Part shown: positions 4,278 to 57,634 of the stretch, piece by piece
Numbering within the stretch: the stretch's first letter is position 1
Layout: every line of letters starts with the position of its first letter
Source of the DNA: Lachnospiraceae bacterium G41
GTDB taxonomy: Bacteria; Bacillota; Clostridia; Lachnospirales; Lachnospiraceae
Direction: 5' to 3'
Assembly (NCBI GenBank): GCA_900100245.1
Contig: FNEU01000002.1
Coordinates: 1-64,000, forward strand
DNA length: 64,000 nucleotides
Made by a program: the position numbers and the translations under genes
The notes under the pieces: generated by a model
What the model was told of the DNA's origin: nothing
Database searches by the model: none
What the model saw: the letters and a program-made list of their open reading frames with translations, nothing else

Positions 4278-4290
4278 ATGGTTAATATTT

Positions 4291-4520
4291 AAAGGCTGTG
4301 AAAAAGAGAGTAGTGTCAGAGAAAGTTCACAGAGAGGGCAACATTTGCTGAGAGGTGCCTAACCGGACTGATATGAAGACCACTTTGGAGCCGAACGCTG
4401 AAAGAAGTAAGCGTCTCCGTGCTGTTACGTTAAAGACTCAAAGAGTGAAAAATTAAGGTGGAACCGTGCTTATGGCACCCTTAGTATCCGATGGGATATT
4501 ATGTGGGTGTTTTTTTTTAT
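4291..4520 (+). promoter_or_regulatory. T-box leader of thrS
   Basis: The conserved T-box core AAGGTGGAACCGTGC is at 4455-4469. A terminator follows (CACCC...GGGTG then nine T, about 4476-4520). Stem I upstream contains the specifier region GAAGACCACTTTGGAG; the threonine codon ACC at 4379-4381 (or the adjacent ACT) is the candidate specifier, matching the downstream threonyl-tRNA synthetase. Uncharged tRNA-Thr binding should stabilise the antiterminator and let thrS be transcribed. The specifier position is inferred from sequence, not folded by program. Confidence 0.9.
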
Positions 4521-14676: not shown

Positions 14677-14751
14677 CGGGGTGTGGCTCAGTTTGGCTAG
14701 AGCGCTGTCTTAGGGAGGCAGAGGTCGCAAGTTCAAATCTTGTCACTCCGA
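14677..14751 (+). tRNA. tRNA-Pro (anticodon AGG)
   Basis: 75 bases in a complete cloverleaf: acceptor CGGGGTG/CACTCCG, anticodon stem CTGTC/GGCAG with loop TTAGGGA, T stem GCAAG/CTTGT. Anticodon AGG at 34-36 reads CCU. C1-G72, A73 and G37 fit bacterial proline tRNA identity. CCA is not encoded. A T run follows and may end transcription. Confidence 0.95.
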
Positions 14752-29034: not shown

Positions 29035-29063
29035 TTGTCAAACACTTGCAAAAATGATATAAT
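29035..29063 (+). promoter_or_regulatory. Promoter of hom
   Basis: TTGTCA, 17-bp spacer, TATAAT (extended TGATATAAT), 42 bases before the start codon. Confidence 0.75.
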
Positions 29064-29104
29064 TTCTGTTGTTTTGGCATTATTTTGTCATAAAGGAGAT
29101 AGTT

Positions 29105-30313
29105 ATGATAAGTGTTGCTGTTATGGGATACGGCACTGTCGGAAGCGGTGTTGTGGAAATAATCGACAAAAACCAAAAAGAAGTTAATGAAAAAGCCGGC
29201 GATGAGGTATCTGTCAAGTACATACTTGATTTAAGGGATTTTCCGGGCGATCCTCATCAGGACAAATTCATAAAAGATTACAAAATTCTCGTAGAAGATC
29301 CCGAGGTGGATATTGTCGTAGAAGCTATGGGCGGAATCGGGACTGCATATAAATTCACCAAGGAAGCGCTCCTTGCGGGTAAGAGTGTGTGTACATCCAA
29401 CAAGGCTGTAGTGGCAGAACACGGTCCCGAGCTTCTTAAAATTGCAAAAGAACATAACTGTACATATATATTCGAAGCCAGTGTTGGCGGCGGTATTCCC
29501 ATCATCAGACCGCTTCACACGAGCTTTACGGCAGAGAAAATCGAAAGCATTACCGGTATCTTAAACGGTACGACGAACTATATGCTTACGAAGATGGATG
29601 AAGAAAACTGCGATTACGACGAAGTGCTCAAGGAAGCACAGGCAAAGGGATATGCAGAGCAGAATCCCGAAGCAGACGTATGCGGATACGACGCATGCAG
29701 AAAGATTGCGATTCTTACATCATTAAGCTCAGGTAAAACGGTTCATTATCAGGATATCCGCACGGAAGGTATCACGAATATCAATCAGGAAGATTTTGAA
29801 TACGCCAAGAAATTGAATTCTTCCATCAAGCTTCTCGGTTTAAGCCGTATGGAAGAAGGAAAGATTATGTGTATCGTTGCTCCTTTCTTAGTTAATGATA
29901 AGCATCCTCTTTCAATGGTTCGCGGCGTGTTTAACGCAATTATGGTAAAAGGAAACATGGTTGGCGATACACTCTTTTATGGTCAGGGAGCAGGCAAACT
30001 TGCTACTGCATCAGCAATTGTGGCAGATATCGTGGACTGTGCGGTTAATAAGGGGAAAACAATCGAATGTCTCTGGAAGGACGAAGATGCAGTTCTTGCA
30101 AAAGACAGTGAAAAATACTTCAGCTATTTCGTTCGTGTAAAGAAAGATTCTTTCGAAGAGATTTCAAAGATTCTTGGAGCAGAGAAAGTTCTTGATTCGG
30201 AAGCAGACGAAATCGGTTTTGTAAGCGCAAAGATTTCCGAAGAAGAATTCTTTAAAATCAAAGACAATTACGAAGCATCGATAATCAATTATATTCGTAT
30301 TTTAGACCTGTAA
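29105..30313 (+). CDS. hom: Homoserine dehydrogenase
   Basis: 402 residues from the ATG with AAGGAG upstream; the frame opens 36 bases earlier without a ribosome site. GYGTVGSGV is the NAD(P) site, TSNKAVVAEHG and EASVGGGIPIIRPL the catalytic region, GILNGTTNYMLTKM the substrate-site signature and YAEQNPEADVCGYDA the conserved acidic cluster. A C-terminal ACT-like segment (FVRVKKDSFEEIS) may bind threonine as feedback inhibitor. It makes homoserine from aspartate semialdehyde, 30 bases before the ApgM-like gene. Confidence 0.95.
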   Translation: MISVAVMGYGTVGSGVVEIIDKNQKEVNEKAGDEVSVKYILDLRDFPGDPHQDKFIKDYKILVEDPEVDIVVEAMGGIGTAYKFTKEALLAGKSVCTSNKAVVAEHGPELLKIAKEHNCTYIFEASVGGGIPIIRPLHTSFTAEKIESITGILNGTTNYMLTKMDEENCDYDEVLKEAQAKGYAEQNPEADVCGYDACRKIAILTSLSSGKTVHYQDIRTEGITNINQEDFEYAKKLNSSIKLLGLSRMEEGKIMCIVAPFLVNDKHPLSMVRGVFNAIMVKGNMVGDTLFYGQGAGKLATASAIVADIVDCAVNKGKTIECLWKDEDAVLAKDSEKYFSYFVRVKKDSFEEISKILGAEKVLDSEADEIGFVSAKISEEEFFKIKDNYEASIINYIRILDL

Positions 30314-30343: not shown

Positions 30344-31117
30344 ATGAAGTATGTAGTAATAATATGTGACGGTATGTCGGATGAACCTCTTGAGGAACTC
30401 GGCGGAAAGACTCCTCTTTTTACAGCCAAGACTTCGCATACCGATACACTTGCAAGAGTTTCGGAGTTAGGCATCGTTCATACAATTCCAAAAGGAATGG
30501 ATGCCTCTCCCGACGTTGCAATTCTTTCTGTACTCGGATATAATCCCTCACTTATTGAAAATATATTAAAGGATGAACCAACGGATACATCCTTTGATTT
30601 TTATACGAACACGGGTAAAAAAGGCGCTATTGTTACAGCTGATGAAAAGATAAAAGCTGTAGCAGAAAAAATAAATCTGTCCGTTATAGAGGCAGAGGGT
30701 GCGACAGGAGATTTGTCGACCAATTACGGTGCCAAAAAAGATGCTGCCGTAAAAGCATTATTTGAAGACGATATGGATTTTGTAATGATTCACGTCAAAG
30801 CACCCGGTGTTGCAGGCGAAAACAAGGATCTTGAAAAGAAGATTTCCGCTATTGAAAACCTTGATGCATACATCATAGGACCGCTGGTGGAAGAGATTCA
30901 GGGCAGGGACGTGGAATTCAGACTCCTTATAATGTCCGGCTTCCCCACACCCGTGAGACTCGGAAGTGCTTCAAAAGAAGCCGTTCCGTATCTTTTATAC
31001 GATTCTTCCATAGAAGAGGACGGAGATCCTGTCTTTTATGAGAAAACAGCTCTTGAAAAGGGGTATTTTTACGATGAAGGATACCTTCTTTCCAATCATT
31101 TTTTGGAAGCAGAGTAG
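30344..31117 (+). CDS. Degenerate ApgM-family (phosphoglycerate mutase-like) protein
   Basis: 257 residues. Both ends align with cofactor-independent mutases of the ApgM type (usually about 400): KYVVIICDGMSDEPLEELGG at the start, LSVLGYNP, then EGATGDLSTNYGAKKDAAVKAL and AVPYLLYDS. About 140 residues of the inserted phosphoglycerate-binding region are gone. The catalytic pattern is lost: the nucleophile Ser position is Pro56, the D..H metal pair is Gly155/Glu159, the DH pair is Gly199/Phe200 and the last His is absent; only Asp9 stays. Full-length ApgM-like genes commonly lie between hom and lysC in related genomes, with a homoserine kinase role suggested. This one is probably a non-catalytic or repurposed protein. 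Confidence 0.75.
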   Translation: MKYVVIICDGMSDEPLEELGGKTPLFTAKTSHTDTLARVSELGIVHTIPKGMDASPDVAILSVLGYNPSLIENILKDEPTDTSFDFYTNTGKKGAIVTADEKIKAVAEKINLSVIEAEGATGDLSTNYGAKKDAAVKALFEDDMDFVMIHVKAPGVAGENKDLEKKISAIENLDAYIIGPLVEEIQGRDVEFRLLIMSGFPTPVRLGSASKEAVPYLLYDSSIEEDGDPVFYEKTALEKGYFYDEGYLLSNHFLEAE

Positions 31118-31124
31118 TTTTTTG

Positions 31125-31153
31125 TTGAAAAATCAAATAAATGGAATTAAAAT
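31125..31153 (+). promoter_or_regulatory. Promoter of lysC
   Basis: TTGAAA, 17-bp spacer, TAAAAT, 42 bases before the lysC ATG. No lysine riboswitch is present in the short leader. Confidence 0.65.
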
Positions 31154-31195: not shown

Positions 31196-32404
31196 ATGTT
31201 AGTCGTTAAGAAATTTGGCGGTACATCTGTTGCCAACAAAGAGAGAATCTATAACGTAGCTCGTCGTTGCATTGAAGATTACAATGCGGGAAATGATGTA
31301 GTAGTTATTCTTTCGGCAATGGGAAAGATGACCGACGAACTCATTGAAAAAGCAAAAGATATTAATCCCAACCCATCCAGAAGAGAGCTTGATATGCTCC
31401 TTACAGTAGGCGAACAGACAAGCGTTTCGCTGATGGCTATGGCGATGGCAAACCTTGGCGTGCCTGCAATAAGCTTAAATGCTTTCCAGGTATCCATGCA
31501 TACAACTTCCAATTACGGAAATGCCAGACTTAAAAGAATTGATACCGAAAGAATTTCACACGAACTTGAGAGCCGTAAGATTGTAATCATCACAGGTTTC
31601 CAGGGCGTGAATAAATATGACGATTATACAACTCTCGGAAGAGGCGGTTCCGATACAACCGCTGTTGCAATCGCAGCTGCTCTTCGTGCAGACAAGTGCG
31701 AGATTTACACAGACGTTGACGGTGTATACACAGCAGACCCGAGAATTGTTAAGAAAGCAAGAAAGTTAAACGAAATTACATATGACGAAATGCTCGATCT
31801 TGCCACACTCGGTGCAGGCGTATTACACAACCGTTCAGTTGAGATGGCTAAGAAATACGGAGTTACTTTGGTAGTTCGTTCATCCCTTACAAATGAGGAA
31901 GGAACAATCGTTAAGGAGGATGTTAAAGTGGAAAAAATGCTTGTTAGCGGCGTAGCCGTAGATAAAAGTGCTGAAAGAATTTCAATCATTGGTCTTGAAG
32001 ATAAGCCCGGTACCGCATTCAGAGTATTCGATGCTCTTGCAAAGGCTAATGTAAACGTGGATATGATCTTACAGTCTGTAGGTCGTGACAATACAAAGGA
32101 TATTTCATTTACCGTTGACGGAAACTTCGGCGAAGATGCTCTTAAGGTTCTTGAAGAGAATCAGGCAAGACTTAAATATCAGAACATCGAAATGGAAAAG
32201 AATGTTGCAAAGGTATCAATCGTTGGTGCCGGAATGATGTCTAACCCCGGTGTTGCTGCCAAGATGTTTGAATGCCTCTACAACGAGCACATCAACATCA
32301 AGATGATTTCAACATCAGAAATCAGAGTAACGGTTCTTATCGACGTTAACGATGCTGAGAAAGCAGCAAACGCAATTCATGATATCTTCGGACTTGATGA
32401 ATAA
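31196..32404 (+). CDS. lysC: Aspartate kinase
   Basis: 402 residues. VKKFGGTSVA (3-12) is the signature of the kinase domain; GRGGSDTTAVAIAAAL is the ATP/aspartate region. Two ACT domains occupy about 265-402 and carry feedback sites. It phosphorylates aspartate, the first step to lysine, threonine and methionine. The start has AAGGAGG. An internal ribosome site at 31913 would produce a separate ACT-domain subunit, as in B. subtilis LysC. A terminator follows. Confidence 0.96.
   Translation: MLVVKKFGGTSVANKERIYNVARRCIEDYNAGNDVVVILSAMGKMTDELIEKAKDINPNPSRRELDMLLTVGEQTSVSLMAMAMANLGVPAISLNAFQVSMHTTSNYGNARLKRIDTERISHELESRKIVIITGFQGVNKYDDYTTLGRGGSDTTAVAIAAALRADKCEIYTDVDGVYTADPRIVKKARKLNEITYDEMLDLATLGAGVLHNRSVEMAKKYGVTLVVRSSLTNEEGTIVKEDVKVEKMLVSGVAVDKSAERISIIGLEDKPGTAFRVFDALAKANVNVDMILQSVGRDNTKDISFTVDGNFGEDALKVLEENQARLKYQNIEMEKNVAKVSIVGAGMMSNPGVAAKMFECLYNEHINIKMISTSEIRVTVLIDVNDAEKAANAIHDIFGLDE
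31913..31930 (+). promoter_or_regulatory. Internal ribosome site and start of a lysC beta subunit
   Basis: AAGGAGG at 31913-31919 stands 8 bases before an in-frame GTG (31928, codon 245); an in-frame ATG follows at codon 248. Translation from here gives about 158 residues with both ACT domains. B. subtilis aspartokinase II makes its beta subunit from an internal start near codon 246. Confidence 0.75.
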
Positions 32405-57560: not shown

Positions 57561-57634
57561 GTGCATTTAGCTCAGCTGGATAGAGCGTTTGGCTACGGAC
57601 CAAAAGGTCGGGGGTTCGAATCCTCTAATGCACG
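57561..57634 (+). tRNA. tRNA-Arg (anticodon ACG)
   Basis: 74 bases. Acceptor GTGCATT/AATGCAC, anticodon stem TTTGG/CCAAA with loop CTACGGA, giving ACG (normally edited to ICG by TadA). Discriminator G. CCA not encoded. Confidence 0.95.

Follow-up and report, generated by a model that had tools for sequence, protein, structure and literature searches.

What does a shortened relative of a phosphoglycerate mutase do between two genes of the aspartate pathway? The window, i.e. the whole stretch of 64,000 nucleotides of Lachnospiraceae bacterium G41 that was analysed (positions 1 to 64,000 of contig FNEU01000002.1), raises this question at positions 30344–31117. A first-pass annotation had described an intact frame there between hom and lysC, an arrangement borne out by the ATG-to-TAG frame and by the PF00742 domain encoded upstream and the PF00696 domain downstream. 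The features of the locus are as follows.

29035–29063, forward strand: promoter-like site upstream of hom, 11 of 12; a consensus match only
29105–30313, forward strand: hom, homoserine dehydrogenase, 402 amino acids from ATG; PF00742 (3e-62), PF03447 and NF004976
30344–31117, forward strand: short gene, ApgM-derived as judged by profile matches and orthologues in 11 other genomes of the genus; 257 codons encoding 257 amino acids, ATG to TAG
30344–30553, forward strand: codons 1–70, N-terminal metalloenzyme-core part; in alignments Asp9 is present and Pro56 replaces the nucleophile Ser
30554–30595, forward strand: codons 71–84, short variable linker replacing ~158 residues of full-length ApgM
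30596–31114, forward strand: codons 85–257, C-terminal core part; the D/H, DH and last His ligands are replaced (Gly155, Glu159, Gly199, Phe200, Ala209)
31125–31153, forward strand: promoter-like site between the short gene and lysC, 10 of 12; a consensus match only
31196–32404, forward strand: lysC, aspartate kinase with ACT domains; PF00696 (1.2e-56), preceded by an AAGGAGG ribosome-binding site

The gap between hom and the short gene is 30 bp and that between the short gene and lysC is 78 bp. An alternative TTG start at 29069 would lengthen Hom by 12 amino acids. Promoter-like sites number 14, against 8.2 expected by chance. No riboswitch or T-box was detected at the hom–short gene–lysC operon at the gathering threshold. 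Elsewhere the window contains a T-box leader (4289–4485, forward strand, 110.9 bits) and two tRNA genes (14677–14751 and 57561–57634, forward strand).

The window protein matches the metalloenzyme superfamily PF01676 with 91.2 bits (E value 1e-25), above the gathering cut-off of 24.3. It aligns with TIGR00306 (E value 5.8e-63) in two stretches, model positions 1–68 and 233–401, the 164 model positions between them being absent. It scores below both NCBIfam cut-offs, with 213.2 bits for TIGR00306 (cut-off 320) and 203.8 bits for TIGR02535 (cut-off 446.3). Three other short forms are also under the cut-offs, with 179–242 and 156–231 bits, respectively. Three full-length ApgM proteins of the genus exceed both, scoring 491–499 bits on TIGR02535, in line with the earlier description of full-length homologues as proposed homoserine kinases. 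The matches of the window protein are far beyond chance and point to descent from ApgM, the proposed homoserine kinase (TIGR00306/TIGR02535). The stretch replaced by the linker corresponds to most of the phosphotransferase/lid domain PF10143. Pfam finds only positions 1–33 of the 170 of this domain in the window protein and nothing past the first 32–37 positions in four short forms, and the domain is whole in L082, the one full-length protein of the genus scanned with Pfam. Full-length ApgM of the genus comprises 400–402 residues, which makes the window protein smaller by ~144, close to the ~140 missing residues estimated at first pass. Mean identity among the short forms is lowest in segments 101–120 (0.47) and 61–80 (0.51). 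A search for repeats inside the gene yielded two short pairs and nothing more.

The AlphaFold model of the short protein is poor (mean pLDDT 52.9), six near-identical sequences having been usable. By both sequence and fold, archaeal-type ApgM (PDB accession numbers 2zkt, 3kd8 and 3idd) is the best match; 2zkt ranks first with a phmmer E value of 2.4e-23 and a Foldseek value of 3.1e-7, the latter obtained on the poor model and in agreement with the sequence result. TIGR02535/ThrB2, represented by Bacteroides thetaiotaomicron BT2402, shares the fold and the hom neighbourhood and is linked by direct descent. Unlike this family, the four short forms scoring 156–231 bits lack most of PF10143 and most metal ligands.

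Seven residues were scored in the numbering of the full-length protein of genome G206: Asp9, Ser56, Asp299, His303, Asp343, His344 and His353. We take these to be the two-metal ligands and the nucleophile, as in the iPGM/ApgM family. All seven are invariant in 7/7 full-length proteins of the genus and in 44/44 rows from the family (41 distinct loci), the latter being the best-scoring ApgM matches and not a random draw; together these make 51 rows, 48 of them distinct. According to PMC9765024, BT2402 conserves the zinc sites seen in a crystal structure, its D12 corresponding to D9; unlike in archaeal-type ApgM, these sites are not kept in the short protein. The window protein retains one of the seven residues, Asp9, the others being Pro56, Gly155/Glu159, Gly199/Phe200 and, for the last His, Ala209. 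The claim that the catalytic pattern is replaced throughout is thus accurate for the window protein, in which Asp9 alone is left, but does not extend to the short forms generally. The same is true of the exchange of the nucleophile, since Ser56 is present in 7 of 11 short forms and the Ser-to-Pro change is found in the window genome alone. Asp9 is kept in 8/11 and is Glu in 3/11, the denominator being 11 where the alignment took only the C-terminal piece of G227; the separate N-terminal piece of G227 has Glu9. The first metal-site Asp (Asp299) is present in 3/12 and, within the DH pair, Asp343 in 6/12 and His344 in 1/12. All 12 lack His303, His353 and the insert, including the arginine that the insert carries. 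The short forms retain between one (window genome, G219 and G211) and four (G223) of these residues, in differing sets, and no new conserved ligand set emerges among them. Lys131, His150, Arg193, Asp220 and Ser221 are invariant across 23 aligned short and full proteins. The short-form lineage has lost catalytic residues that its relatives retain, as is expected of a pseudoenzyme.

The window's genus is represented by 31 genomes, of which 12 contain the short form, eight a full-length ApgM and 11 no ApgM that could be found; some of the last are incomplete, and G214 lacks hom too. The full-length group consists of seven genomes above the cut-off and G208, in which the gene lies in two overlapping frames (L085, 4607–5826, reverse strand, genome 70% complete) that reflect either a sequencing error or recent decay. 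Eleven short genes are complete, uninterrupted frames of 255–259 amino acids from ATG to stop, a length that is constant down to 55% identity among the short forms. The twelfth, in G227, is interrupted where two contigs end, and its N-terminal piece does not continue as expected. Relatives were checked for the same form: five metagenome-assembled genomes (MAGs) at 90–91% identity, counted within the 12, all carry the short gene and none a full-length one. An assembly error is excluded by the presence of the same short form on the contigs of these five. In 200 genomes of the family (199 genera), the short form occurs in the window genome only, among the matches listed (to ~40 bits), and among those listed from 397 family genomes it is again found in the window genome alone. 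Viral contigs contain no relative of the short gene. As far as seen, the short form is confined to one genus.

A Hom tree of 30 genomes places the 12 short-form genomes in one clade (98/93), with the full-length genomes G206 and then G216 as the nearest relatives. The ApgM tree, built on columns common to the short and full forms only, likewise groups the 12 short proteins (100/99) and joins them to the full-length proteins of G206 and G216 (100/100 for the 14). The single clade on both trees indicates one truncation event, which was passed on together with the operon. Two groups without ApgM are placed elsewhere in the Hom tree and are therefore not the end point of the short-form lineage.

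The dN/dS ratio (Nei–Gojobori) among the six closest short genes is 0.071–0.150 in 14 of 15 pairs. The remaining pair, G205–G210, yields 0.217 with a wide interval of 0.070–0.521, and the upper bootstrap bound is below 1 in every one of the 15. The corresponding values in the same group are 0.010–0.087 for Hom (10 pairs; G222, a partial frame, left out) and 0.005–0.032 for LysC (10 pairs; G215, where the contig ends, left out). Three close pairs of full-length ApgM give 0.030–0.048, so the short gene is ~3 times looser. More distant pairs, whose synonymous sites are saturated or nearly so, were not relied on. At 0.25 neutral changes per site, ~8 stops per gene would be expected, and the 11 complete frames contain none. 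The short gene is under purifying selection, looser than that on full-length ApgM. A pseudogene is excluded by dN/dS and the absence of stops; decay of homologues was looked for specifically, and 11/11 complete frames are open.

Conservation is unevenly distributed. Full-length proteins are ≥98% conserved in 90 of the columns common to both forms; the short forms keep 37 of these, and the other 53 are relaxed. Of the relaxed columns, 23 lie around the lost ligands (52–60, 152–161 and 199–209), 19 at 94–130 and 11 elsewhere. Segments 1–40 and 181–200 of the short forms show 80–84% mean pairwise identity. Twenty-seven positions are invariant in the short forms and below 60% in full-length proteins, and 24 of them are the same in G206 and G216, the exceptions that do not match both sisters being 4, 140 and 175. 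Any new surface may therefore predate the truncation. The lineage surface that is invariant in the short forms and shared with G206 and G216 comprises His32, Thr35, Arg38, Lys50, Tyr176, Gln186-Gly-Arg188, Asp244 and His252.

In 10/12 genomes the short gene has hom on one side and lysC on the other, and the remaining two loci are cut by contig ends: the G215 contig stops before lysC, and the G227 gene is divided between a contig that carries hom and another that carries lysC. Gaps across the short loci are 20–40 bp before the gene (11 loci) and 76–104 bp after it (10 loci). Together with the trees, the 11 open frames and the dN/dS values, these flanks agree with the first-pass view of an ApgM-derived pseudoenzyme kept in frame and in place. 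Full-length ApgM of the genus has both flanks in 6/8; in G213 hom is present and the contig stops 102 bp past the gene. In G216, hom adjoins the full-length gene on one side; on the other, the 567 bp that remain of the contig hold a repeat array (L084, 1–567) and no lysC. Across the wider family, full-length ApgM has hom beside it in 39/44 loci (36/41 distinct) and lysC in 29/44 (27/41 distinct), counts that refer to best-scoring matches, not a random draw, with some loci cut short. In genus members without ApgM, hom and lysC are direct neighbours in 8/8 genomes whose hom region was read (of 11).

Relatives were also checked for a separate thrB, and classical ThrB (TIGR00191, cut-off 168.25) passes in 0/31 genomes of the genus. 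The best TIGR00191 match is 48–83 bits in 30 genomes and is lacking in G227; in the two genomes in which it was read, the window genome and G220, it is a frame of 433–445 amino acids judged to be IspE. A ThrB in disguise is thereby rejected, the GHMP match of the window genome being a 445-residue frame judged to be IspE with a long C-terminal extension (L198:634–1971, forward strand, genome G000 C21). Corresponding frames of 437–453 amino acids occur in 11/12 short-form genomes and in G206 and G216, and those of most other genus members measure 285–323 amino acids. The APH-type homoserine kinase (thrB_alt) is above its cut-off in 0/31 genomes, and the 314-residue APH-type match of the window genome reaches ≤45 bits on homoserine kinase models with cut-offs of 256–271. 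ThrC is above its cut-off in 28/31 genomes; its neighbours reach contig ends in G222 and G227, and the region was not found in G212. Loss of threonine synthesis in the short-form genomes was rejected on these grounds.

A fair candidate for the homoserine kinase of the window genome is a stand-alone shikimate-kinase-like protein of 167 amino acids encoded outside the window (L199:396–896, reverse strand; genome G000 C13 3592–4095). Its best NCBIfam match is NF040667 with 164.5 bits (cut-off 197), and shikimate kinase models score ≤94. The Desulfovibrio homoserine kinase of this type, DvMF_0971, rescued an E. coli thrB mutant, according to PMC5764234. NF040667/DvMF_0971 acts at the pathway step proposed for full-length ApgM; it has an unrelated P-loop shikimate-kinase fold and, without being kin to ApgM, is a candidate for taking over the lost activity. 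In the genus, the shikimate-kinase-like protein occurs in 6/12 short-form, 1/8 full-length and 4/11 ApgM-less genomes, single matches in frames of 412–473 amino acids being counted as AroE–AroK fusions, of which some only were read. At E ≤ 1e-40, it is present in 296/382 listed Lachnospiraceae genomes. Among the 397 family genomes, it is found in 76–83% of the 205 with ApgM and 66–73% of the 192 without, in a comparison by hand that left 15 genomes without a kinase match unlisted and counted G193 (ApgM match 9e-4) as without. Displacement of ApgM by this protein is therefore unsupported at the family level, where no complementary occurrence is seen. G120 and G209, both listed as 100% complete, possess Hom and ThrC, and ThrB, thrB_alt and ApgM do not pass. 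Their only shikimate kinase match lies in a frame of 437–446 amino acids taken as an AroE–AroK fusion, and their homoserine kinase is likely to fall outside the families tested.

The single origin, the loss of insert and ligands, the intact frames, the purifying selection and the constant place between hom and lysC are best read, at about an even chance, as those of a selected pseudoenzyme that is a partner or regulator at the homoserine branch, homoserine being phosphorylated by another kinase. The alkaline-phosphatase-like core of a TIGR02535-type ApgM shed the phosphotransferase/lid insert a single time, in the ancestor shared by the dozen genomes, and its metal site then drifted apart among the descendants. 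The short protein would no longer transfer phosphate, would act via its folded surface, and would tune flux at the branch while another kinase phosphorylates homoserine. Its most likely partner would be homoserine dehydrogenase, followed by LysC or a bound small ligand; Hom is placed first because its linkage in the family is more constant than that of lysC. A core that is kept under selection with its chemistry gone, between the genes of the first and third steps, is most simply explained as a partner. A regulatory or scaffolding role is plausible, and gene order is what supports a putative partnership with Hom or LysC. The direct hom–lysC junction in all eight ApgM-less genomes read argues against Hom and LysC requiring a partner of this kind as a rule.

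The same eight genomes favour another reading, possible but less probable, in which the selected pseudoenzyme has a new job outside the aspartate pathway and its place reflects history and co-expression. This would account equally well for selection and for the loss of catalysis. Since hom and apgM are linked in much of the family, the position of the short gene says nothing about its present role. Against it, the place is kept in every short-form genome whose contig permits a check, a constancy qualified by the ribosome-binding site and promoter-like site that lysC has of its own.

It is more doubtful that ApgM/ThrB2 was already a dedicated homoserine dehydrogenase subunit before catalysis was lost, the short protein being a naturally isolated regulatory half. 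If true, full-length ThrB2 would have this non-catalytic role as well, which would account for the dependence of threonine synthesis on BT2402 and for its failure to replace E. coli ThrB. According to PMC7311316, BT2402 is needed for threonine, yet an E. coli thrB mutant was not rescued by it, and the homoserine kinase function of ThrB2 is treated as unproven.

Slow decay of a remnant, the enzyme having become dispensable once another kinase took over, is unlikely. The looser constraint relative to full-length ApgM and LysC, the heterogeneous loss of ligands, the genus members in which no ApgM was found and the N-terminal piece of G227 at its contig end would suit a gene on its way out, but dN/dS well below 1, the lack of stops and the constant length speak against it. 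We hold it equally improbable that the short protein is still an enzyme with a smaller rebuilt site, of one metal or none, that acts on a small ligand, either phosphorylated or of amino-acid type, for instance homoserine. None of the short-form genomes encodes a homoserine kinase above the TIGR00306, TIGR00938 or TIGR00191 cut-offs, which makes a residual or novel function at that step conceivable, and the five residues invariant in the 23 aligned proteins are in keeping with it. However, the one to four residues retained form differing sets with no new ligand set, and the loops surrounding the ligands are among the relaxed parts. That the DNA and not the protein matters, the frame merely maintaining translation or spacing of hom and lysC, would fit the short intergenic gaps but is very improbable, since selection acts on amino acids and the ApgM-less genomes read join the two genes directly.

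A rumen bacterium and its close relatives keep intact, between two genes of amino-acid biosynthesis, a shortened enzyme relative without active site or lid, which suggests a present function as partner or regulator rather than as enzyme. YejM/PbgA, a Gram-negative membrane protein, is a pseudoenzyme of the alkaline-phosphatase fold with a regulatory role. It resembles the short protein as a dead hydrolase fold put to regulation and offers a precedent for a possible working mode; it differs in having no gene-context or sequence link, and the Foldseek match to its periplasmic domain is weak (2.2e-3, on the poor model). No report of a dead ApgM was found in the literature searched, in which subscription journals are little covered, and a selected dead ApgM, if true, would constitute a new pseudoenzyme lineage. 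Within one genus, the same hom and lysC are accompanied by a full-length ApgM, a catalytically dead one or none, which provides a natural experiment on catalysis versus other roles. A gap at the homoserine kinase step is already recognised: according to PMC9026213, ThrB is missing from 328 of 2533 human gut genomes predicted to be threonine prototrophs, and neither ThrB nor the proposed ThrB2 is present in 50 genomes, mostly of Clostridia. G120 and G209 are singled out here, with threonine synthase present and no tested homoserine kinase family passing.

A small protein is encoded directly upstream of hom in 4/8 ApgM-less genomes read (L156, L159, L162 and L163; G120, G209, G228 and G202), and in G120 it consists of HTH and ACT domains as identified with Pfam. 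Short-form genomes carry at this place a divergent DUF6062 gene, not the small protein. Seven positions of Hom change with the short form, five of which are identical in both full-length sisters, G206 and G216. At Hom residue 193 (window 29105–30313), which adjoins a conserved GYDACRK motif, at least 88% of other genus members have Glu, and all short-form genomes covering it and both full-length sisters have Cys.
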